Source: Olsenella profusa DSM 13989
GTDB taxonomy: Bacteria > Actinomycetota > Coriobacteriia > Coriobacteriales > Atopobiaceae
DNA: 64,000 bases
Assembly (NCBI RefSeq): GCF_030811115.1
Contig: NZ_JAUSQK010000001.1
Coordinates: 372,001-436,000 of the forward strand
Direction: 5' to 3'
Made by a program: the position numbers and the translations under genes. Below the pieces are notes generated by a model, which made no database searches, was not told where the DNA came from, and saw nothing but the letters and a program-made list of their open reading frames with translations. Numbering within the stretch: position 1 is the stretch's first letter; each line of letters begins with the position of its first letter. Below, piece by piece: positions 6,857 to 19,364 of the stretch.

Positions 6857-7140
6857 GGCTTTCTCCTCACATGTTGTCGACGCTGCAAGATGCCGGCGCC
6901 TCTCGTCTGTGGTGTGGCCGCTGTCGCACGGCCGACTGAGGGCGCCCTCCGTCCGGCCGGCTTTGCGACCTTGCGTTGGGCCACCCATTCTAGCTGACAC
7001 GGCCGGCCTGCACGCGGACACGCCGACGCGCTCCTTCCCCTTCGGGGCCACAGGCGTCCCCGCAGGCCGCCGCATTTCCCGCAGGCGCCTCCAAGCGATC
7101 CTCCGCCGGCATGGCGCAGGGGCGCAACTCATCACAGCAC
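6857..7140. other. Intergenic region with possible leftward promoter
   Basis: Upstream of the binding-protein gene. On the minus strand a TAGAAT hexamer (6987-6992) could serve as a -10 box about 130 bp before the start, but no convincing -35 matches it. The right part borders the decayed rpiB-like gene, and its lost 5' end may have been here. Confidence 0.3.
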
Positions 7141-7503
7141 GCCTCTGCGGAGCGCTTCAACTACCCCATAGGCGGCTACAGGGTGGCACGGATGGTCGCC
7201 CCGGGCGGGGCGGACGGCGGCGCGCTCATCTGCGGCACCGACGTGGGTATCAGCCTCGCGGCCAACAAGGTGAGGGCATCCGTGCCGTGGTGCGCTCGGG
7301 GCCCTACCCCGCCCGCCTCAGCCGCCAGCACAGCGACACTGACGTCGTAGCCCTCGGCGCGCGCGACCGGCATGGAGATCGCAAGGGACATCGTCGACGC
7401 CTGGCTGGGCGCCACATACGAGGGCGGGTGCCACCAGGCGCGCATCGAGACGATCTCCGAGATCGAGGAGACCCAGCGTCTCAGGGTGGTCAATGGGGCC
7501 TAG
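7141..7503 (+). pseudogene. Decayed ribose/galactose-6-phosphate isomerase (RpiB/LacAB family)
   Basis: Three consecutive pieces in different frames match the RpiB family in order. First comes SAERFNYPIGGYRVARMVA with the active-site loop ALICGTDVGISLAANKV. Then, after a frameshift near 7270, comes GPYPARLSRQHSDTDVVALG. After another shift near 7350-7365 comes GMEIARDIVDAWLGATYEGG up to the TAG at 7503. The N-terminal third is missing. The family isomerises aldose/ketose phosphates. The third piece is closer to RpiB than to LacB. It sits beside a sugar-operon regulator, suggesting a lost gene of the galactitol/tagatose system. Confidence 0.85.
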
Positions 7504-7526: not shown

Positions 7527-8306
7527 CTACTCCAACATCAGGCGCGTACCCGACCCTTTCAACGCTGCCGCAACCACGCCCTCGGGATCCACGTCCATGA
7601 CGACGGCATCGAAGTCCACAAGCCCCGCGAAGCGGATGAGGCCGCTCGCGCCCACCTTGCTGGCATCCATGAGGCAGTACCGCCTGTCGGCCGCCCCGAG
7701 CATCGCATGCTTCAGCTCCGCCATCGCCTGGTAGTCGGTCATGAGACCACGCCCCGGCACGAAGCTGCTCGGGCACACGAAGACCTTGTCCGCGTGCAGC
7801 TCGGCCAGCGCCGCCATGGCGAGGGGGCCGGTGGTGTAGCGGTGCGCCTTGCGCAGCATCCCGCCCAGCATCACCACGTCGCAGCTGGGCATGGCGCGAT
7901 CGATGTGCTCGGCGATGGTGAGGTCCGCCGTCACCACCGTGAGCCCCTCGCGCAGCGAGAGTGCGCGTACCAGCTCGAGGGTCGTGGTGCCCGAGTCCAC
8001 CAGGAGCGTGTCCCCGTCCCCCACGAGCCGGGCGGCGCGCGCCGCTATGACCTGCTTTGCCTTGGCGTTCACGTTCACGCGACGGTCCTGCACCGAGACC
8101 GTGAGCCTGCGCGAGAGCGACGCGGCGCCGCCATGCGTGCGCCGCAGCTTGCCGTCGCGCGCCAGGGCGTCGAGATCCGCCCGCGCCGTCACGCGCGACA
8201 CGCCAAACGCCTGCGCAAGCTGGTCGACGCGCACGGCGGACTCACGTTCCAGGAGCTCCAGGATCGCCCTCTGCCGCTCCAGCGCCCCAAGGTGCGTGAC
8301 TGCCAT
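7527..8306 (-). CDS. DeoR/GlpR-family transcriptional regulator
   Basis: A 259-residue sugar-responsive repressor. The N-terminal winged helix (residues 9-60) has RQRAILELLERESAVRVDQL and the recognition helix VSRVTARADLDAL. It is followed by the linker box LRRTHGGAAS and a DeoRC effector domain with DSGTTTLELVRAL, the usual phosphosugar-binding loop. The start ATG at 8306 has GGAAGGAC upstream. It is divergent from the class II aldolase gene, whose start is 287 bp away, and probably controls it in response to a phosphorylated sugar. Its 3' end meets the rpiB-like pseudogene. Confidence 0.9.
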   Translation of the reverse strand: MAVTHLGALERQRAILELLERESAVRVDQLAQAFGVSRVTARADLDALARDGKLRRTHGGAASLSRRLTVSVQDRRVNVNAKAKQVIAARAARLVGDGDTLLVDSGTTTLELVRALSLREGLTVVTADLTIAEHIDRAMPSCDVVMLGGMLRKAHRYTTGPLAMAALAELHADKVFVCPSSFVPGRGLMTDYQAMAELKHAMLGAADRRYCLMDASKVGASGLIRFAGLVDFDAVVMDVDPEGVVAAALKGSGTRLMLE

Positions 8307-8592
8307 ATCCGTCCTTCCGACGTCCGCCGACCTGTGCCCGATGCCCCGTGCCATTGGAATTGTGTTGCTTTTGTCTTTCTTTCTCGCAAGTATACGGCAA
8401 TGCAGTTCCTTTCCTTTTGCGTTTCGAGATGATCCTGTCCTCCCCAATTGGAGGTGAGAAAAGCACGTGTAAGGGGAATTCTGTCTCTTCATACCTTATA
8501 CCTGCCTGTTTTATGCCTTTTCTAAAAGACAAGTCTCTCGCCCCCTGCTTACGCTGGGGCCACGTTACGACCCCAGCAGAAGGGAGCACCAC
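8307..8592. promoter_or_regulatory. Divergent control region, regulator and aldolase
   Basis: A 286-bp region, less GC-rich than its surroundings, between two divergent starts. Pyrimidine-rich runs (CTTTTGTCTTTCTTTCTCGC) and a TATACT hexamer on the minus strand (8390-8395, complement AGTATA) suggest promoter DNA. No confident paired promoter or operator could be assigned. Confidence 0.35.
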
Positions 8593-9444
8593 ATGTTTGT
8601 CACCACCAAGGACATGCTCGAGCGGGCACAGGAGGGCCACTACGCCGTCGGCGCGTTCAACGTGGAGAATCTCGAGTTCGTGATGGCCGTCATCAGGGCC
8701 GCCGAGGAGAGGAGGTCGCCGGTCATCATGCAGACCACGCCGGGCACGGTGAGGTACGCGAGCCTCGACTACTTTGTGGCCATGGCCCGCGTTGCGGCCG
8801 AGGACGCCTCCGTGCCCGTGGCGCTGCACCTCGACCATGGCGACGGCTTCGACCGCTGCGTCCAGGCCATGCGCGCCGGCTACACCTCCGTCATGATCGA
8901 CGGCAGCCACGTCCCCTTCGAGGACAACATCGACCTCACCGCCTCCGTCACCAAGGTCGCAGCCCCCATCGGCCTGCCCGTCGAGGCGGAGCTGGGCAAG
9001 GTGGGCGGCAAGGAGGATGACGGCCCGGCCGTGGAGGGCGAGAGCCCCTACACCGATCCGGACGAGGCCGTCGAGTTCGTGGCGCGCACGCGGTGCACGT
9101 CGCTGGCCGTGGGCGTGGGCACCGCCCACGGCGTCTACACGGGCACCCCTCACATCGAGCAGGGCGTCCTCAAGGAGATCCGCAGGAGGGTTGACGTGCC
9201 GCTCGTGCTGCACGGCACCTCGGGCGTCCCGGACGACCAGGTGGCCGAGGCCATCCAGAACGGCATCTGCAAGGTGAACTATGCCACCGAGCTGCGCCAG
9301 GCCTTCATGCGCGGCTTCATGGGACACATGGCGGAGAACCCGTCGTGCTTCGACCCCAAGAAGCCGTCGATCCCCGGCATGGACGAGATCCAGGCCGTCG
9401 TCGAGAGCCACATGGACAACCTGGGGTCCACGGGCAAGGCGTAG
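8593..9444 (+). CDS. Class II (zinc) ketose-bisphosphate aldolase, GatY/KbaY-like
   Basis: A 283-residue metal-dependent aldolase that splits fructose- or tagatose-1,6-bisphosphate into dihydroxyacetone phosphate and glyceraldehyde 3-phosphate. The catalytic Asp and zinc His lie in VALHLDHGDGF, with further zinc/phosphate residues in MIDGSHVPFEDN, VGVGTAHGVY and LHGTSGV. The length fits GatY/KbaY and short FBAs. A GAAGGGAG ribosome-binding site precedes the ATG. Since a lacABC set without lacD lies 9 kb away, it is the likely tagatose-bisphosphate aldolase of this pathway; specificity is inference. The next gene along is DUF4867, on the opposite strand. Confidence 0.9.
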   Translation: MFVTTKDMLERAQEGHYAVGAFNVENLEFVMAVIRAAEERRSPVIMQTTPGTVRYASLDYFVAMARVAAEDASVPVALHLDHGDGFDRCVQAMRAGYTSVMIDGSHVPFEDNIDLTASVTKVAAPIGLPVEAELGKVGGKEDDGPAVEGESPYTDPDEAVEFVARTRCTSLAVGVGTAHGVYTGTPHIEQGVLKEIRRRVDVPLVLHGTSGVPDDQVAEAIQNGICKVNYATELRQAFMRGFMGHMAENPSCFDPKKPSIPGMDEIQAVVESHMDNLGSTGKA

Positions 9445-9492: not shown

Positions 9493-9497
9493 GCGCC

Positions 9498-9673
9498 GTG
9501 TGGGTGCTTCTCTGTGAGTGCCTTTCCCATCCATGTGGGTGCTAATCGGTTCGTGTGGGTGCTAATCTCCCGGCTTGGCTTCTCGTGACCTGCGATTTTA
9601 TCGACCCCTTCCGGGAGAATCGCACCCACACGCAGCAAAAGGCACCCACATGGGTGGAGATCGCACCCACACG
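9498..9673. repeat. Nested inverted array of GTGGGTGC motifs
   Basis: The motif CGTGTGGGTGC or CATGTGGGTGC occurs three times rightward (about 9497, 9532, 9552) and three times as its complement (about 9622, 9642, 9663), in mirrored order CG-CA-CG. The inner pair extends to 22 bp with two mismatches (to CTCCCGG/CCGGGAG). The whole could fold as a large cruciform or hairpin. It lies between converging genes. Confidence 0.65.
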
Positions 9674-9741
9674 CGGCTATCGGCGGCCCCGTCCGCTCAG
9701 CCGCCCCCCCATCACGGCTGGCGGACCTGACCCAGCGAAGC

Positions 9742-10404
9742 CTACCGAACGTCCGCCAGCGCCTCGCTCACGTCGATGTTCTCGCCCATGAGCCCCACAT
9801 GGGCGCCCTGCCGCGCCTTCTTTGTGCTCTCGTGTGTGATCACCCACTTGTTGGCGCCCCAGAGTATCGCACCGTCGCCATAGCGCGGCACATCCGCGGG
9901 ACGTGGCCCGTTGGTCCCCGCGGGCAGGGCCACCAGCATCCTGAAGCCCCGGTCGGCATGGGCATGACAGGGCGTGTAGTGCAGGGTGTCCGCATACACC
10001 TCGATGAGCGTCCCGGCAGGGACCAGGAAGGCCCGTACGCGGGACGTGTCCAGGCAGAAGCCGCCGTCCAGCTCCTCCCTCTTGGCAAGGAGCAGCACCA
10101 CATCGTCCGTCGGCAGGTTGAACTCGCTCGAGCGATGGTATTCCAGGCTGTTCATCTTGGTGTTGCGCCCGCAGACGCATCCCAGCTCCGTGGGCAGCCC
10201 CGCAAAGAAGAGGAGCTCCAGGTCGTGCGCTGCGGGCACCTCATGCAGCGCGGGAACGTCCGCCACATACGAGGTGCCCTCCTCGGCAAGCGGCACGCTC
10301 TCCCTGAGCGCCGCGACCATCTGATCGCACACTCCCTGGGGCACGTCATCCCACACCCTGCCATAGCGCGCGAAGCTGGGATCGGTGACTGGAACGATGT
10401 TCAT
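9742..10404 (-). CDS. DUF4867 family protein
   Basis: A 220-residue protein matching what I recall of DUF4867, a cupin-like family usually found in sugar PTS or sugar-acid operons. Visible features are VWDDVPQG near the start, ELGCVCGRNTKMNSLEYH in the middle, AFLVPAGTLIEVYADTLHYT and CHAHADRGFRMLVALPAGTN. The clustered His residues suggest metal binding, and ALHEVPAAHDLE is family-like. It probably acts as a sugar-phosphate isomerase or binding protein, but its function is not established. It is 81 bp downstream of the PTS fusion gene on the same strand and presumably co-transcribed. Confidence 0.7.
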   Translation of the reverse strand: MNIVPVTDPSFARYGRVWDDVPQGVCDQMVAALRESVPLAEEGTSYVADVPALHEVPAAHDLELLFFAGLPTELGCVCGRNTKMNSLEYHRSSEFNLPTDDVVLLLAKREELDGGFCLDTSRVRAFLVPAGTLIEVYADTLHYTPCHAHADRGFRMLVALPAGTNGPRPADVPRYGDGAILWGANKWVITHESTKKARQGAHVGLMGENIDVSEALADVR

Positions 10405-10485
10405 GGCAATCTCCCCTCGACGGAGGAGGCGCGCCCGGACAGGGACGCACCCCCTCGCATACCGTGCCTCTCCCTGCCTCGCTGG

Positions 10486-11928
10486 CTACTCGGGCGCGGC
10501 CTCGGTGCCAGCTCCGGAGTCATCCGCGGCAGGCGCGGCAAACGAGCCGGTCACCAGGCGGTCGGGCGTGCAGATGCCCGCCTGCACGTAGTCCTCGGCG
10601 TTGCGCCTCTGCATCTCGCGGCGGTACCACATGAAGAGCAGGAGGTACGCTGCGAGGGCAAGCGCGAAGAACAGCAGGAACTGCAGGTTGGTGCAGCCAT
10701 TGCCCAGCAGGAACGCCAGGAACTTCTCCACCAGCCCCTCCATGGTGGTGTCAGAGATGAGCTGCCCCGCGGCAAGGCCACTGGGGAACGCGCCCACCTG
10801 CATGGCCGTCTGCGTCACGAAGGGCGCGACGAGCGTGCCCGCCCACAGGAACACGGGAAGCACGATGGTGCCGATGATGATCATGCGCAGCATCTTGCCG
10901 CGCGTGACCACGAGCAGGGCAGGCGTGAGACCCATGGCGATGATGCCGCCCAGGGGCAGCAGGCCGTTGCCCGGCAGCACCAGCGACTCGAGGAGCATGA
11001 TGGGCGCGAGGACGTTGGCCGCGGCCCAGATCTCCGCTCGGCCCGCGAGGAACGGCCAGTCGAGGCCCACGTTGAGCGTGCGGCCCTTGAGCCGTTCGTT
11101 GGCGAAGTTTGAGATGCCCTGGGAGAGCGGCTCGATGGCCTCGATGAACCATGCGCCGATGAGCGAGAACAGCTCCAGGTAGACGGCGGCGGTGAACGCC
11201 AGCGTACAGATGCTCTTGATGTCCTCGTGCGCGAGCAGACCCACAAAGATGCCCAGGTAGATGCCGATGGAGAACTTGGATCCCCAGAAGCCCACCTTCT
11301 CGTTGAGCTTGGCGGCGTCAAAGTCATACCTGTCGAGGCCCGGCAGGAAGCGATCGAAGAACTTGTTGAAGACCATGATGATGGGGTTCATCATGTAGTT
11401 CATGTGTGTGGTGGTCATGGGGTTGCCCGGCGCGTCGATGAGGTCGTTGAACGTGGGGCGCATGACGTCGGAGTTCATGATCTTGAGGACGCCGATGAAC
11501 ACCACGAGCAGCGTGGCCACCCACAGCGGCGCACCGAAGTACATGCACGCCAGGCCCACGAAGGCCAGATGCCAGATGTCGAACACGTCCACATCGATCG
11601 TGTTGGTCCTGTCCAGCACGATCATGTCGTGCCAGGTAATGGGGTTGACCAGCTTCACGGGTACGAGGCAGGTGCACGTCGAGTACTCCGTCTCGGTGTG
11701 CGGCACGGCGATGTTGGGAAAGCGCGGATCGACAGGGGCCATGCTCAGCCCGGTGGGATAGGTCGCCTCGCGCCTCTTGACATGGGAGAGGTACCCCTCC
11801 CTCACGAGCCCGGCGGCCATCAGCCGTTCACCCAGCTGGTCGAACACCTCTTCCTGGCTCTGCGCGTCGATCACGTAGACCGCGTCACGCAGGAAGAGCT
11901 CGCCAAATACACTTCCCATGCCCATCAC
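10486..11928 (-). CDS. Galactitol-type PTS protein: truncated IIA joined to truncated IIC
   Basis: Residues 1 to about 100 match a GatA-type IIA domain, including the phosphorylatable His in NIAVPHTETE, but stop short of the usual 150. From about residue 103 (IDVDVFDIWHLAFVG) the chain matches the last three quarters of the GatC membrane component (NEKVGFWGSKFSIGIYLG, LESLVLPGNGLLPLGG). The first roughly 120 IIC residues and all of IIB are absent. This pattern fits an in-frame deletion from gatA into gatC of about 0.8 kb. No other gatA or gatB lies in the window, so galactitol uptake is probably lost. The IIC half keeps several hydrophobic segments. Start ATG 11928 or the next ATG. Confidence 0.8.
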   Translation of the reverse strand: MMGMGSVFGELFLRDAVYVIDAQSQEEVFDQLGERLMAAGLVREGYLSHVKRREATYPTGLSMAPVDPRFPNIAVPHTETEYSTCTCLVPVKLVNPITWHDMIVLDRTNTIDVDVFDIWHLAFVGLACMYFGAPLWVATLLVVFIGVLKIMNSDVMRPTFNDLIDAPGNPMTTTHMNYMMNPIIMVFNKFFDRFLPGLDRYDFDAAKLNEKVGFWGSKFSIGIYLGIFVGLLAHEDIKSICTLAFTAAVYLELFSLIGAWFIEAIEPLSQGISNFANERLKGRTLNVGLDWPFLAGRAEIWAAANVLAPIMLLESLVLPGNGLLPLGGIIAMGLTPALLVVTRGKMLRMIIIGTIVLPVFLWAGTLVAPFVTQTAMQVGAFPSGLAAGQLISDTTMEGLVEKFLAFLLGNGCTNLQFLLFFALALAAYLLLFMWYRREMQRRNAEDYVQAGICTPDRLVTGSFAAPAADDSGAGTEAAPE

Positions 11929-12270
11929 CCCTACCCCCTGCGCCGTGAGCGCTGCCGGATGGCGTCCTCACACCTCGAACGGACGTGCAGGCCCCTCCAC
12001 AGACGAGCCGCCTGTGTCCACACGACCCATGCTCGTACGACACGGCGCACCCACAGACCTGCACCGAAGCTGTTTGTGGGCTGAACACGTGAGACCAGCG
12101 TGCCGTGGCTCGGGAGCGACGCACGCGCTGGTACCAGCCAGTGACGGCACGCGCGGTTCGCACAGCAAACAGGGCGTGCATACAAAGCGCACGGACGGGC
12201 GGACCCCGTCGCCGCATGTCCGACGGTCACAGGGGACGTCGGTACCCGAAGGCGTCTTGTCTCACAGGGC
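11929..12270. other. Intergenic region upstream of the PTS fusion gene
   Basis: About 340 bp holding the leftward promoter region of the PTS fusion gene. TGTTTGTGGGCTGAACA (near 12070) loosely resembles the TGTTTG/CAAACA operator-like palindromes of the lac control region. I see no gene. Confidence 0.35.
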
Positions 12271-12326: not shown

Positions 12327-13748
12327 CTACGTGTCCAGGAAGCGCTCCTGGGCCACCTCGGCGTACCAGCGCGCGGAGTCCTTGGGAATGCGCTCCTGCG
12401 TGTCAAAGTCCACGTAGAAGAGGCCATAGCGCTTGTTGTAGCCATTGTTCCAGCTGAAGACGTCCATGAGCGACCACACGAAGTAGCCCCGCAGGTGTGC
12501 GCCCTCGGCGATGGCCTTGAGCGCCCAGCGCAGGTGCTCGCGGATGTAGTGGATGCGCTCCTCGTCGTGCACCGCCCCCTCCTCCAGCCGGTCCTTGGAG
12601 GCCATGCCGTTCTCGGTGACATAGAGCTCCTTGTAGTGGGGCCACTGGCGACAGATGCGCATCACCAGGTCGTAGAGCCCCTGGGGATAGATCATCCAGT
12701 CCCAGTCGGTGCGCGGGATCTCGGGGCGTGCCACATACTCGCCGATGCCCTGGAGCGCATGGCGCTCCGTGCCCTTCTCGCCGGTGGAGTTGTGGTGGCA
12801 GTCGTTGGGACCGTCGTATGCCTTGAGGAAGTTGCTCTGGTAGTAGTTGATGCCCAGGCAGTCGTTGTGCGGCGCCGCGGCAGCGAGCTGCTCGAGGTCC
12901 TCGGGCAGAAGCTCCAGCCGCCCGCCCGCAAGGGCGGCGAGCCTGTTGGCACAGTCCAGCGTCTCCTCGGAGTACCTTCCGTCAAACGTGGCCTCCAGCA
13001 GGAACTGGTTGTTGAGCACGTCGTCGATGCGGGCCGCCTCGACATCGCCCGCCGCGGCGGGGTCATCCGGGTACTTGGTCGAGAGGGCATGGACGACGCC
13101 GATGGACCCGGGATGGCCCAGCTCCTCGAAGGCGCACACGGCGCGGGCGTGGGCGACCATCATGTTGTGCATGGCCTGGAAGGCCAGGTCGAGCCGATAG
13201 CGCTGGCCACGCGGCCAGGTGCCCTCGATGTACATGTTGGACACGACGGCCCAGATCTCGTTGAACGTGAACCAGTGCGTCACCTCGGGATACTCCGCGA
13301 AGCAGAAGCGCGCGTAGCGCTCGAAGGCATCGATGGCATGCCGGTTGAGGAAGTCCCCCTCACGGTAGAGCGCATCCGGCGAGTCAAAGTGGTGGAGCGT
13401 CACGTACGGCTCCACGCCCCGGGAGCGACATTCCGCGAAGAGCCGATGGTAGAACGCCACGCCCTCGGAGTTGGGCACGGAATCGTCCCCGTTGGGGAAG
13501 ATGCGCGACCATGCGATGGAGACGCGGATGCCGTTGATGCCATACTCCTGGCAGAGCCGCAGGTCCTCCGGATAGCGATGGTAGAAGTCACTCGCCGGGT
13601 CGGCGAAGAACAGGCCCTTCTCGTCCAGGTAGTCGTCCCAGGCAACCTTGCCCTTGCCGTGCGTGCGCGTCTCGCCCTCGCACTGGTAGGCCGCCGTCGC
13701 CGCGCCAAACACGAAGTCCTTGGGAAAGCGTGCGTCCTCCTGCGTCAT
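12327..13748 (-). CDS. lacG: 6-phospho-beta-galactosidase (GH1)
   Basis: A 473-residue cytoplasmic glycosidase that hydrolyses lactose 6-phosphate to galactose 6-phosphate and glucose. GH1 signs are the N-terminal FVFGAATAAYQCEG, acid/base Glu in HWFTFNEI, nucleophile Glu in LYVTENG, and the phosphate-binding end FSWNNGYNKRYGLFYVDF, where Ser, Lys and Tyr match LacG positions that hold the 6-phosphate. HHFDSPDALY also resembles LacG rather than 6-phospho-beta-glucosidases. The start ATG is one base after the lacE stop (TGACATG), with GGAGGCGAG inside lacE as its ribosome-binding site. It is the third gene of lacFEG. Confidence 0.93.
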   Translation of the reverse strand: MTQEDARFPKDFVFGAATAAYQCEGETRTHGKGKVAWDDYLDEKGLFFADPASDFYHRYPEDLRLCQEYGINGIRVSIAWSRIFPNGDDSVPNSEGVAFYHRLFAECRSRGVEPYVTLHHFDSPDALYREGDFLNRHAIDAFERYARFCFAEYPEVTHWFTFNEIWAVVSNMYIEGTWPRGQRYRLDLAFQAMHNMMVAHARAVCAFEELGHPGSIGVVHALSTKYPDDPAAAGDVEAARIDDVLNNQFLLEATFDGRYSEETLDCANRLAALAGGRLELLPEDLEQLAAAAPHNDCLGINYYQSNFLKAYDGPNDCHHNSTGEKGTERHALQGIGEYVARPEIPRTDWDWMIYPQGLYDLVMRICRQWPHYKELYVTENGMASKDRLEEGAVHDEERIHYIREHLRWALKAIAEGAHLRGYFVWSLMDVFSWNNGYNKRYGLFYVDFDTQERIPKDSARWYAEVAQERFLDT

Positions 13749-13749
13749 G

Positions 13750-15525
13750 TCACTCGCCTCCCTTGAGGGCGTCGGCGACGAAGCGCAGTGACTTCTCGCC
13801 ATCGCGCGTGAGGTCGATGTACTCCTTGCCCCCACAGGCCGCCGTGGCGACGCCCATGCGCGCGGCGTCCTTCTCGAGGTCAGGCAGGTAGGAGGCAACC
13901 TGCGGCGCCAGGATCACGAGGTCGTAGTCACCCATGATGTCCAGGTGCGCGCCATAGGCACCGGCGGCCGCCTCAAGGTCCACGCCATGCTCCTCGGCCG
14001 CCTTGGCAAGCGCGTTGGCCAGCAGGCCCGACGTGCCGCCACCGGCGCAGAGCACCAGCACGCGCTTGCCGTCGAGGGATGCGCCCGCAGCCGCGGGAGC
14101 GGCAGGTGCGGGAGAAGCGGTGGGCGCGGGGGAAGGCGCGGGGGCGGGAGCCGCCTCCTCGCGTGCGGGAGCGGGCGTGGCGCCCTCGGCTGCCGGCGCC
14201 TCCCCACGTGCCGCCTCGAGCGCCGCCTCGTCGGCGTCCTCCTGGTCGAGCAGCTGGCGGTCATACACGCGGAAGAACGGGTAGTACACCACGAAGTCGA
14301 CGCCAAGGGCCACCGCGACGTAGAGCAGCGAGAGTGGCTGCATGGCGCATCCCAGGAAGATGCCCAGAGGCGCAGGGGTCACCCAGGGAAGCACGTAGGT
14401 GAAGCTGTTCATGCCCAGGACGTCCACGAAGACCTTGAAGACCCACACGTTGAAGACGGGCGCCAGCACGAACGGAAGGAAGAACACGGGGTTGAGCACG
14501 AACGGCGCGCCAAAGAGTATGGGCTCGTTGACACCAAAGAGCACGGGCACCGCGGAGGCGCGGCCGATGGCCTTGAGCTGCTGGGAACGTGCCATGAAGG
14601 CGATCATGAGCGTGATCATGAGCGTGGCGCCCGTGCCGCCCATGGTGACCACGAAGTACTGCGTGCCAGGCGTGATGACGCTGGAGGCATGCTGCCCCGC
14701 CTGGACGAGCGTGAGATTGTTGGCCACGTTGTAGAACGCGATGGCGCCGATGGCCGGCTCCACGATGGAGGGGCCGTGCACGCCCACGAACCAGAAGAGG
14801 CCGATGGCGCCGTAGATGACCGCCAGGCCGGCATAGGTGTCGGCGGCCGAGAAGAGCGGCTGGAAGGCACGAATGACGCCCTCGGCGAAGCAGAAGCCGA
14901 ATACCCCACGGAAGAGGTGGTCGAACAGCCAGAACACGATCGTGGTGGCAGCGAACGGGATGATGTCCTTGAACGTCTGGGCGATGTTGGGCGGCACCTG
15001 CTCGGGCATCTTGAGCGTCACGTTGTTCTTGATGAGCACCTTGTAGATGCCACCCACCACAAACGCGGTCAAAAAGGCCGTGAGCAGTCCCTTCGAACCC
15101 AGATAGGAGGTGTCGAGACCCGTGAGGGACGTGCCGTCCGCCAGCTGCTGCACGATGTCGCCCGACGCCAGGATGGCAAAGCCCACGACGGACGCGAGCA
15201 TCGTGGAGACCGAGTTGATCTGGTTGGTCTTGGGCATCTCGCGGTTGAGGCCGTCAGTGAAGTGCTTGGCCGTGGTCGCCGCCACGAGCAGGCCCACGAT
15301 GCCCATGGAGTAGTTGTACGGCTTCATGAGGAAGTCGTTGACCTCCTGGGGCCACTGGTAGCCAAAGATGATGGGAATGTTGGCTATCAGCAGGAAGAGC
15401 GACGAGAAGATGATGATTGGCATGACCGAGATGAAGCCGTCGCGAATGGCCTTGAGGTACTTGTTACGTGCGACGGCGTCAAAGAAGGGCTTTCCCCTCT
15501 CAATGAGCGCGATCAGGCGTTCCAT
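13750..15525 (-). CDS. lacE: Lactose PTS permease, IICB component
   Basis: A 591-residue membrane enzyme that imports lactose and phosphorylates it. The N-terminal IIC domain (to about residue 430) has multiple membrane spans and family motifs such as GVHGPSIVEPAIGAIAFYN and FGVNEPILFGAPFVLNPVF. An unusually Ala/Pro-rich linker of about 55 residues follows. The C-terminal IIB domain carries the phosphorylated Cys in VLVLCAGGGTSGLLAN. AGGAAAGG precedes the ATG at 15525; an upstream in-frame extension is unlikely. It is downstream of lacF and upstream of lacG. Confidence 0.94.
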   Translation of the reverse strand: MERLIALIERGKPFFDAVARNKYLKAIRDGFISVMPIIIFSSLFLLIANIPIIFGYQWPQEVNDFLMKPYNYSMGIVGLLVAATTAKHFTDGLNREMPKTNQINSVSTMLASVVGFAILASGDIVQQLADGTSLTGLDTSYLGSKGLLTAFLTAFVVGGIYKVLIKNNVTLKMPEQVPPNIAQTFKDIIPFAATTIVFWLFDHLFRGVFGFCFAEGVIRAFQPLFSAADTYAGLAVIYGAIGLFWFVGVHGPSIVEPAIGAIAFYNVANNLTLVQAGQHASSVITPGTQYFVVTMGGTGATLMITLMIAFMARSQQLKAIGRASAVPVLFGVNEPILFGAPFVLNPVFFLPFVLAPVFNVWVFKVFVDVLGMNSFTYVLPWVTPAPLGIFLGCAMQPLSLLYVAVALGVDFVVYYPFFRVYDRQLLDQEDADEAALEAARGEAPAAEGATPAPAREEAAPAPAPSPAPTASPAPAAPAAAGASLDGKRVLVLCAGGGTSGLLANALAKAAEEHGVDLEAAAGAYGAHLDIMGDYDLVILAPQVASYLPDLEKDAARMGVATAACGGKEYIDLTRDGEKSLRFVADALKGGE

Positions 15526-15593
15526 GACAATCCTTTCCTGTGACGATGGATGCATGGGGCGGACATGCGGCGCATGGTCCGCCCCAGGCCGTG

Positions 15594-15905
15594 CTAGCGG
15601 TCGCGGTAGATGTCCAAAAGCGTGGTGATGATGTCGGCCAGGAGCATCGTGGTCATGAGGTGGTCCTGGGCGTGGATCATGATGAAGCCCAGCTCCGCGC
15701 TCTCCCCCTTGGCCTCGCGGCTCAGCAGGTCAAACTGCGACTTGTGCGCATCGTTGAGCAGGCCCTTCGCCTCCTCGACGAGGGCATCCACCTCGTCAAA
15801 CTTTCCCGCCTTGGCATCCTTGAGCGCCAAGAGCAGCTTGGTCCGTGCGTCACCCGAGTACGCGACGATCTCGAACCCGATGTTGGCAACTTGCTCCTTG
15901 TCCAT
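15594..15905 (-). CDS. lacF: Lactose PTS IIA component
   Basis: A 103-residue soluble phosphocarrier that passes phosphate from HPr to the LacE IIB domain. It has the trimeric helical IIA-lac pattern, with the phosphorylated His expected in GFIMIHAQDHLMTTMLLAD and the start NIGFEIVAYSGDARTKLLLA. The ATG at 15905 has GGAGAGAGGAG upstream; the longer open frame beyond it is non-coding. It is the first gene of the leftward lac operon, opposite lacR. Confidence 0.95.
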   Translation of the reverse strand: MDKEQVANIGFEIVAYSGDARTKLLLALKDAKAGKFDEVDALVEEAKGLLNDAHKSQFDLLSREAKGESAELGFIMIHAQDHLMTTMLLADIITTLLDIYRDR

Positions 15906-16555
15906 ACGAACTCCTCTCTCCTGTGTTCGACTCCTGCTATGTGAGACGGTCATCCCCTCCCGGTAGGGGCTGTCCGCTGATCCCGGCTCAGGTCGCTGGT
16001 GTGGCGGTAAGGCACAGGTGACGTGCGGTGGTATGCGACGTTCTGTTTGTTGCAAACATCCTCGCGCGCGGGAGCACAAGCTGGAGCCAGGTGTTGCGCT
16101 GATCGAACGAAAGGCCCAAACGCACAGCGTCGCGCCCAAAAACGAGCACGAAGGAAGCCATCTCGTTCGCAGGAGCAACACGTCCGCCACCATCACTCCA
16201 CGAGCATGCGGGGCGCTCCGCATGCAGGGCCGACCGGGCCGACGGAGGCCCGTGCGCACCGTCCCGTGCCTGCTTGAGACGTGCATGGGACCCGGTGGCC
16301 CCGTGCGCTCCCGAGCGTCACGGGCACGGGGGCCTGCCCGTGCGCACGCCGCTCCCGCACCGCCTTCGAGGCCGCCCAAGACAACGATCTGGCCTGTTCG
16401 TTTGTGTGCGCGATTCGAACAGGACCCGCGCTGTCGGGAGCAGCCAACTGTTCGCCCGACTGACAGCCGCCCCACGTTCGGGCCACACGCTCCCTCCCAG
16501 GCCTTGCGCGCACACGCAACCATCGGTATCGTTCGCGCAGACAGAGGAGGATGCC
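15906..16555. promoter_or_regulatory. lac divergent control region
   Basis: 650 bp between lacF and lacR. A TGTTTG-TTG-CAAACA palindrome lies at 16044-16058, and CCTGTTCG...CGAACAGG (8-bp arms) at 16393-16423. Another ACTGTTCG lies near 16450. These AACA/TGTT-edged sites are good candidates for binding by LacR-type DeoR regulators. For the rightward genes, TTGCGC (16504-16509) and TATCGT (16527-16532) form a promoter with 17-bp spacing. For the leftward genes, TTGCAA overlaps the first palindrome, but its -10 is weak. No gene is seen here. Confidence 0.55.
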
Positions 16556-17406: not shown

Positions 17407-17829
17407 ATGAGAGTCGTACTGGCCTCAGACCCCGAGGGCACCGCCCTCAAGGACGACATTGCGGCATACCTGAGGGAACAGGGCCACGAGGTGGCCGACG
17501 AAGGCGAGCAGGCGGATTGCGTGGACGCCGCACTGAAGGTTGCCCACGCCGTCCTCGACGACCCCGCGAGCAGGGGCATCGTGGTCGATGGCTATGGTGC
17601 GGGAAGCTACATGGCCGCCAGCAAGGTCAAGGGCATGATATGCGCCGAGATCTCCGACGAGCGCTCCGCCTACATGACCCGCCAGCACAACAATGCCAAG
17701 GTCATCTGCCTTGGCGCCCAGATCGTGGGACCGGGGCTTGCCAAGAGCATCGCCCGCGAGTTCCTCGCGGCCGACTATGACGGCGGCCGTCACCAGATCC
17801 GCGTGGACATGCTCGACAAGATGGCATAG
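17407..17829 (+). CDS. lacA: Galactose-6-phosphate isomerase subunit LacA
   Basis: A 140-residue RpiB-fold subunit that pairs with LacB to convert galactose 6-phosphate to tagatose 6-phosphate. Family marks are the start [37 protein letters not shown] in place of the RpiB cysteine loop (LacA lacks the catalytic Cys), and [19 protein letters not shown]. The length matches the usual 142. AAGGGAAGG precedes the ATG. It lies between lacR and lacB, all rightward. Confidence 0.93.
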
Positions 17830-17891
17830 CGCCACGCTCGAAACCATCCCATCACCAGCAGCTGGGGGCATCCCCCAGAGAAGGGAGCACC

Positions 17892-18416
17892 ATGGCTACA
17901 AAGATCGTCGCCATCGGTTGTGACCACATCGTCACGGACACCAAGATGCACCTGTCCGACTCACTCAAGGCGCACGGCTATCAGGTCATCGACTGTGGCA
18001 CGTACGACACCACGCGCACGCACTACCCCATCTATGGCAAGAGGGTGGGCGAGCTCGTCGCCTCCGGGAAGGCGGACGCGGGCATCGTGCTGTGCGGAAC
18101 GGGCATCGGCATCAGCGAGGCCGTCAACAAGGTGCCCGGCGCGCGCTGCGCCCTCGTGCGCGACATGACCTCCGCGCTCTTCGCTCGCAGGCACCTGGGC
18201 GCCAACGTCTGCGGCTTTGGCGGACGCATCACCGGGGAGTTTCTCATCAACGACATCGCCAACGCCTTCCTCGAGGCAGAGTACGAACCCACGCCACAGT
18301 CCGATGCGCTCGTCGCCAAGATCGATGCCGTCGAGCACGCCGACCCCAACCAGTCCGACCCCCACTTCTTTGACGAGTTCCTCGAGAAGTGGGACCGCGG
18401 CGAGTACCACGACTAG
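17892..18416 (+). CDS. lacB: Galactose-6-phosphate isomerase subunit LacB
   Basis: A 174-residue RpiB-fold subunit and partner of LacA. The N-terminal [17 protein letters not shown], the catalytic cysteine loop [18 protein letters not shown] and [19 protein letters not shown] are LacB signatures, as is the C-terminal [18 protein letters not shown]. The ribosome-binding site is GAAGGGAG. It is 62 bp after lacA and 9 bp before lacC. A degraded RpiB relative at 7141-7503 shows that more than one isomerase of this fold once existed here. Confidence 0.95.
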
Positions 18417-18425
18417 GGCACGACC

Positions 18426-19364
18426 ATGATACTCACCGTTACCCTCAACACCTCCATCGACAAGGCCTACCAGCTCGACGGTGCCCTGGAGGCGGGCACC
18501 GTGATGCGCGTCGCCCGCTGTTCGAACAGCGCTGGTGGCAAGGGGCTCAACGCCTCGCGCGCCGTCGCCTCGTGCGGGGCGACCGTACTGGCGACGGGAT
18601 TCGTCGGCGGCCACAACGGAAACCTGCTCCTGGACCTCCTGGAGCGGGACAGCATCCCCCAGCGCTTCGTGCGCGTGGGAAGCGAGACCCGCTCGTGCAT
18701 CAACGTGCTCGAGAGCCAGGGGCGCTCGACGGAGTTCCTCGAACCGGGGGCCTCCGTCACCGACGGGGAGTTCGAACGGCTCTCCGCGCTCGTTGGCGAG
18801 GAGGCAGGACGTGCCGGCGTGGTCACCATGAGCGGTAGCGTCCCGGCGGGCCTTCCCAAGACCGCCTGGGCCAAGCTCGTGTCCACCGTGCGCGCCGAGG
18901 GCGTGCCCGTGGTTCTGGACAGCTCGGGCGCGTCCCTGGAGCACGCCGTGCGCGCAGCCACCAAGCCCACCGTCATCAAGCCCAACGTCGATGAGATCTC
19001 CCAGCTGGTCGGCCATCGCGTTGCGTCGACCCCCGAGGTCGTCGATGCGGCACGGCGCCTGCACGGCGAGGGCATCCGTGATGTCATCGTCTCCCTTGGC
19101 GGGGATGGGGCCGTCCTCGTCACCGACGAGGGGGCGTTCCGTGGGTCGTCGCCCTCCATCAAGGTGCTGAACCCCGTTGGCTCGGGCGACACGCTCGTCG
19201 GCGCCTATGCCGTGGCCATGGAGCGTGGGCTCCCTGCCCCGGAGCGCCTGCGCTATGCCATGAGCAGGGCAACGGCCAACTGCCTCTCCCCCGAGACGGG
19301 ACGCTTCGATGCCGACACCGCAGACGACCTGCTCGCCCGGACGGTGGTGGAACCCATCCACTAG
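18426..19364 (+). CDS. lacC: Tagatose-6-phosphate kinase (PfkB family)
   Basis: A 312-residue sugar kinase making tagatose 1,6-bisphosphate from tagatose 6-phosphate and ATP. The N-terminal substrate motif NSAGGKGLNASRAV and the C-terminal PfkB signature with catalytic Asp (NPVGSGDTLVGAYAVAME) are present. The hexose-phosphate 1-kinase subgroup also contains 1-phosphofructokinase, but the context after lacAB supports LacC. It is the last gene of the rightward lac operon. No lacD follows; a hairpin terminator does. Confidence 0.92.
   Translation: MILTVTLNTSIDKAYQLDGALEAGTVMRVARCSNSAGGKGLNASRAVASCGATVLATGFVGGHNGNLLLDLLERDSIPQRFVRVGSETRSCINVLESQGRSTEFLEPGASVTDGEFERLSALVGEEAGRAGVVTMSGSVPAGLPKTAWAKLVSTVRAEGVPVVLDSSGASLEHAVRAATKPTVIKPNVDEISQLVGHRVASTPEVVDAARRLHGEGIRDVIVSLGGDGAVLVTDEGAFRGSSPSIKVLNPVGSGDTLVGAYAVAMERGLPAPERLRYAMSRATANCLSPETGRFDADTADDLLARTVVEPIH

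Follow-up and report, generated by a model that had tools for sequence, protein, structure and literature searches.

Does a reading frame that runs unbroken from one cut domain of a sugar transporter into another encode a recycled membrane protein, or is it only the remnant of a lost system? The question is raised by a gene of Olsenella profusa DSM 13989, which lies in a 64,000-nucleotide stretch of the genome (hereafter the window, meaning the whole stretch analysed) and in which part of a Gat-family PTS EIIA is fused to part of the corresponding EIIC. The best explanation, in which we place high confidence, is a probably recent, strain-specific and repeat-linked deletion, the fusion being a non-working remnant of a probable galactose PTS.

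The fused reading frame and its domains

The frame opens with a GTG codon at 11928 on the reverse strand and runs for 480 codons to 10486 with zero internal stops or frameshifts; it consists of residues 1-103 of GatA followed by GatC residue 118 onwards (Table 1). An in-frame fusion of truncated IIA and IIC had been proposed in the original prediction, and the open frame and Pfam matches bear out both its coordinates and its description. The PTS_EIIA_2 match covers residues 20-100 of the fusion, which correspond to profile positions 12-86 of 144, and is cut at its C end; the EIIC-GAT match covers residues 102-380 (profile 104-389 of 394) and is cut at its N end. An ordinary domain fusion was rejected, because the junction truncates both domains and the genes are separate in relatives.

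A working Gat-family PTS permease would need a complete EIIA domain, an EIIB and a complete EIIC membrane domain, and none of the three is found here. The GatA-like N-terminus of about 100 residues was correctly recognised from the start, and an AVPHTE motif beginning at fusion residue 74 presumably holds the active His of EIIA. Although this motif is present, the EIIA domain is incomplete, as its Pfam match stops at profile position 86. There is no gatB match at the locus, in agreement with the original prediction. The EIIC domain lacks its first 117 residues, or about a quarter of GatC, rather than the 120 originally suggested, and a hydropathy scan gave 9 hydrophobic peaks in the intact GatC versus 6 in the fusion. 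In the streptococcal gatABC (pneumococcal SP0645-6-7), as in O. profusa F0195, the Gat-family EIIA, EIIB and EIIC are encoded by three genes; unlike these systems, the window strain is without EIIB and has both EIIA and EIIC cut.

Table 1. Positions in the window of the fusion, its parts and the neighbouring genes.
Feature	Position	Strand	Evidence
Fused gatA'-'gatC ORF, 480 aa	10486..11928	-	Open frame; both Pfam matches (EIIA_2, EIIC-GAT) truncated at junction
gatA part, residues 1-103 (EIIA without last 62 residues)	11620..11928	-	Nucleotide alignment with F0195 gatA
gatC part, GatC residue 118 to end	10486..11619	-	Nucleotide alignment with F0195 gatC
Deletion junction, imperfect 22-bp direct repeat	11605..11626	-	F0195 arm-to-arm comparison placed on window sequence
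DeoR-family regulator	7527..8492	-	PF00455, PF08220
Class II ketose-bisphosphate aldolase (GatY/KbaY-like)	8593..9444	+	PF01116; TIGR00167 over cut-off; best-scoring model GatY under cut-off
DUF4867 cupin protein, open frame intact	9742..10404	-	Pfam PF16161; solved relative 9gyy, E 7.6e-35
lacG-like 6-phospho-beta-galactosidase	12327..13748	-	NCBIfam TIGR01233 635.5 bits, cut-off 561.2
Lactose-type PTS IIC-IIB	13750..15555	-	TIGR00410, TIGR00853 over cut-off; TIGR00394 581.7 bits, under cut-off 614.4
Lactose-type PTS IIA	15594..15920	-	PF02255
Two PF02502 isomerase genes (lacA, lacB-like) and PfkB kinase (lacC-like)	17407..19364	+	Pfam

The deletion and its breakpoints

An intact form of the locus is found in Olsenella profusa F0195 (G002), a strain assigned to the same species, which has separate gatA, gatB and gatC genes at the same place (locus L006). 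These encode proteins of 165 aa (start L006:3705), 101 aa and 493 aa (counted from the GTG at L006:4656), respectively. The alignment of the two strains has a single gap of 993 bp, which begins at codon 104 of gatA and ends at codon 117 of gatC. A deletion from gatA into gatC had been suspected originally, together with a proposal to compare intact gatABC-DUF4867 loci in relatives; the F0195 locus, with DUF4867 in the same place, confirms the deletion itself, and the alignment replaces the suggested size of about 0.8 kb with 993 bp.

In F0195 the two breakpoint arms match at 19 of 22 positions, as an 8-bp and an 11-bp block flanking a 3-bp mismatch, and since at the mismatch the window has the bases of the gatC arm, the crossover is placed within the 8-bp block (window 11619-11626). 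We infer slippage or recombination between these short imperfect direct repeats as the mechanism, which, probably recently, would have taken gatB entirely, along with the final 62 codons of gatA and the initial 117 of gatC. Further, gatA and gatC of F0195 share one reading frame, and a deletion leaves it open whenever its length is divisible by three; with odds of about one in three, an open frame is by itself no evidence of function. The deleted kilobase has zero matches elsewhere in the DSM 13989 genome, where two gatB relatives remain (32% and 28% identical).

Identity to F0195 is 97.2-97.6% at the deletion junction; it is 97.9% in one flanking matching block, 98.4% in the other and 93.8% in the sequence between the two. 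A diverged tract extends from about window position 11250 to 9750 (88.8-94.8% identical per 250 bp). The 250-bp blocks that flank it mostly reach 97-100%, with two exceptions, 12001-12250 (91.2%) and 9501-9750 (78.8%). A single event that combined deletion with sequence replacement was rejected: the diverged tract starts away from the junction, and the deletion and the divergence therefore look separate.

Several other features of the region were observed. Window positions 9769-10912 (1144 bp, the 3' end of gatC and DUF4867) are 98.3% identical to G023:C20:1-1144, from a genome of another genus, and represent either a recombination tract or contamination of the G023 genome; this contig begins inside gatC, so the presence of a fusion there is not visible. 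The aldolase gene (8593-9444) differs from its neighbours in being identical at every base in both strains, which may reflect a recent exchange of this gene. A dispersed palindromic repeat of GTGTGGGTGC-like units occupies window 9496-9684, with inverted arms at 9513-9573 and 9611-9671. When the surrounding 2.9 kb was used as a query, 71 matches were obtained in the strain's own genome and 75 in F0195. These totals include the locus itself and count palindromic copies on both strands, and nearly all among the matches listed fall in this repeat.

Fate of the fused product

We searched 84,980 species genomes and obtained 212 stretches with one of six peptide patterns, 194 of which encode a relative; the best 80 of these were kept and compared together with 4 more loci. 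The gatA, gatB and gatC genes stand in order on one strand in 78 of the 84 compared loci, and the other six (L014, L046, L049, L062, L138, L139) are cut by contig ends. In 40 loci chosen from the 84, gatA encodes 148-181 aa and gatC 465-503 aa, with no internal stop in any. At family level the fusion query has a match in 84 of 140 genomes, and among the matches listed only that in the strain's own genome extends across query residues 1-480. Conservation of the same fusion in many species would speak against a remnant; among the 84 compared loci and the matches listed for the 140 family genomes, we did not see a second A-C fusion. A literature search likewise found no published A-C PTS remnants, a result that says little. 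Other arrangements were observed in Firmicutes loci, namely a second gatA match after gatC in L052 and two tandem gatB matches in L012, L013, L040 and L042.

The 40 chosen loci share 129 invariant GatC positions, of which 25 lie in the part lost from the fusion, and 13 invariant GatA positions, of which 4 are lost. Relative to F0195, dN/dS is 0.15 for the gatA part (dS 0.057) and 0.153 for the gatC part (dS 0.168), low values that mainly record constraint from the time when the genes were still intact. When G024 served as outgroup, 9 synonymous and 8 non-synonymous changes fell on the window branch of the gatC part, against 21 and 10 on the F0195 branch; these are few changes, and 15 sites are ambiguous. 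For the gatA part the corresponding counts are 3 and 1 on the window branch and 1 and 0 on the F0195 branch (1 site ambiguous). When the gatC tail was compared with G023, using F0195 as outgroup, the window branch again had few changes (1 synonymous, 1 non-synonymous). These substitution counts would fit a recent loss, and numbers this small would also fit a fusion under some constraint.

AlphaFold models were built using alignments A3 and A4, leaving out the mixed GatA/GatC alignments A1 and A2, which were poor. The intact F0195 GatC (mean pLDDT 78.5, pTM 0.79) was predicted to have the same fold as the solved galactitol EIIC, GatC of Leminorella grimontii (PDB 9u82; TM 0.76/0.83). The fusion, which lacks about a quarter of GatC, gave a mean pLDDT of 60.8 and a pTM of 0.60, with a TM of 0.50/0.53 to 9u82, a drop that is partly due to the missing residues. 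As the N part also had one relative in the alignment, we treat this model as weak evidence. The fusion probably does not work as a permease.

The original prediction left the choice between a dead remnant and a recycled membrane protein. We favour the former, most likely a sugar-transporter remnant that is dead and specific to this strain, and a case of ordinary gene loss, and neither conservation of the fusion nor selection on it was found that would support recycling. A fused protein that is still made and has a new job, for instance as a membrane scaffold or as a competitor for PTS phosphate carrier proteins, would agree with the open frame, the kept gatA start, the dN/dS of 0.15 and the 103 of 104 retained invariant GatC positions that are unchanged in the window. 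However, such conservation is also expected if the deletion is recent, and the fusion was found in one genome only among those searched. It is also without three GatC hydrophobic peaks and the C-terminal part of EIIA, and the one retained invariant GatC residue that is altered, Pro412 (numbered from L006:4659), has become Leu while F0195 and G023 keep Pro. A new job of this kind thus seems very unlikely to us. More specifically, a stable membrane protein with a truncated EIIA tethered to a partial EIIC, kept for a new and perhaps regulatory role in the lactose/galactose locus, would be extremely unlikely.

An artefact of assembly or culture, deletion during laboratory passage included, would imply that the strain or its natural population has an intact gatABC, and an intact locus is indeed present in the sister strain. 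The window genome is, however, a single contig (2.6 Mb), and the longest exact block common to the breakpoint arms is 11 bp, which we judged too short for an assembly collapse. An artefact is highly improbable, although the deletion could have arisen during laboratory passage, and a non-working remnant of a deleted transporter stands as our preferred reading.

Substrate, neighbours and meaning

The genes around the fusion form what we take, by established knowledge, to be a lactose/galactose tagatose-6-phosphate cluster (Table 1); the lacG-like start at 13748 was inferred, the scanned ORF having begun at 13898. Homologous gat genes were also found near lactose PTS and lacG matches in several Firmicutes loci (e.g. 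L051, L063, L065, L074). One S. mitis genome and one S. pseudopneumoniae genome have a single EIIC match each to the F0195 GatC, at 58% (tblastn) or 62% (where the match passes a stop codon). Against the NCBIfam galactitol IIC model the intact F0195 GatC scored 204.6 bits, with a cut-off of 542.2. Given the lactose/galactose neighbourhood and the streptococcal relatives (about 58-62% GatC identity, the pneumococcal protein not itself being compared), together with the low galactitol-model score, the lost system, originally read as a galactitol PTS, would most likely be a galactose PTS. In S. mutans the presence of a galactose PTS reportedly belongs to the non-core genome, judging by the title of the 2013 study of Zeng et al.; compared with that strain-variable system, the loss here is by an internal deletion that left a fused remnant.

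In excerpts of PMC3302838, the pneumococcal gatABC is described as a galactose transporter that is induced by lactose and galactitol, with no growth on galactitol seen, and its mutant as slower on 0.1% galactose and only slightly slower on 0.3%. Excerpts of PMC4380338 describe the same system as homologous to the galactose PTS found in S. gordonii, S. mutans and S. oligofermentans, with an affinity that is apparently not very high. By analogy, we would expect the strain to lack one route for galactose rather than to have lost growth on galactitol, and the effect may be modest. DSM 13989 should have lost its PTS route for free galactose; still present are LacG, the lactose PTS and the genes of the tagatose-6-phosphate pathway, and further Gat-type systems lie elsewhere in its genome, at C1:82381-84666 and C1:1084909-1086618. 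F0195 has an extra Gat-type EIIA/EIIC pair (G002:C29:38166-40211), to which none of the matches found in the window genome corresponds. A broken LacAB/RpiB-like isomerase remnant was also observed at window 7111-7455 on the forward strand, a PF02502 match with one TAG whose F0195 counterpart has two.

The DUF4867 gene, with which the fusion, if recycled, was originally thought to be kept, is the next downstream gene in both strains and has an open frame in each. In F0195, where it lies at L006:6219, it adjoins the intact gatC, which leaves it without any special tie to the fusion. The solved relative of its product, 9gyy, is a metal-binding cupin, and the E-x-H-xxx-E and H motifs, which hold the metal ligands according to excerpts of PMC11968277, are apparently kept in the window protein when aligned with 9gyy, with the residue numbering unconfirmed. 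In those excerpts the authors propose that it serves sugar metabolism as a mutarotase or in ring opening, an activity that is undemonstrated. To assign it such a role on galactose- or tagatose-6-phosphate in this locus would be a guess.

Finally, an open frame that covers two annotated domains can represent the scar of a deletion and not a designed fusion, and the gene described here is a clear example of a transporter operon lost in one step between short repeats. Beyond this one-step loss and the strain difference that it predicts the case is ordinary; that predicted difference is one of galactose use between strains of an oral bacterium.
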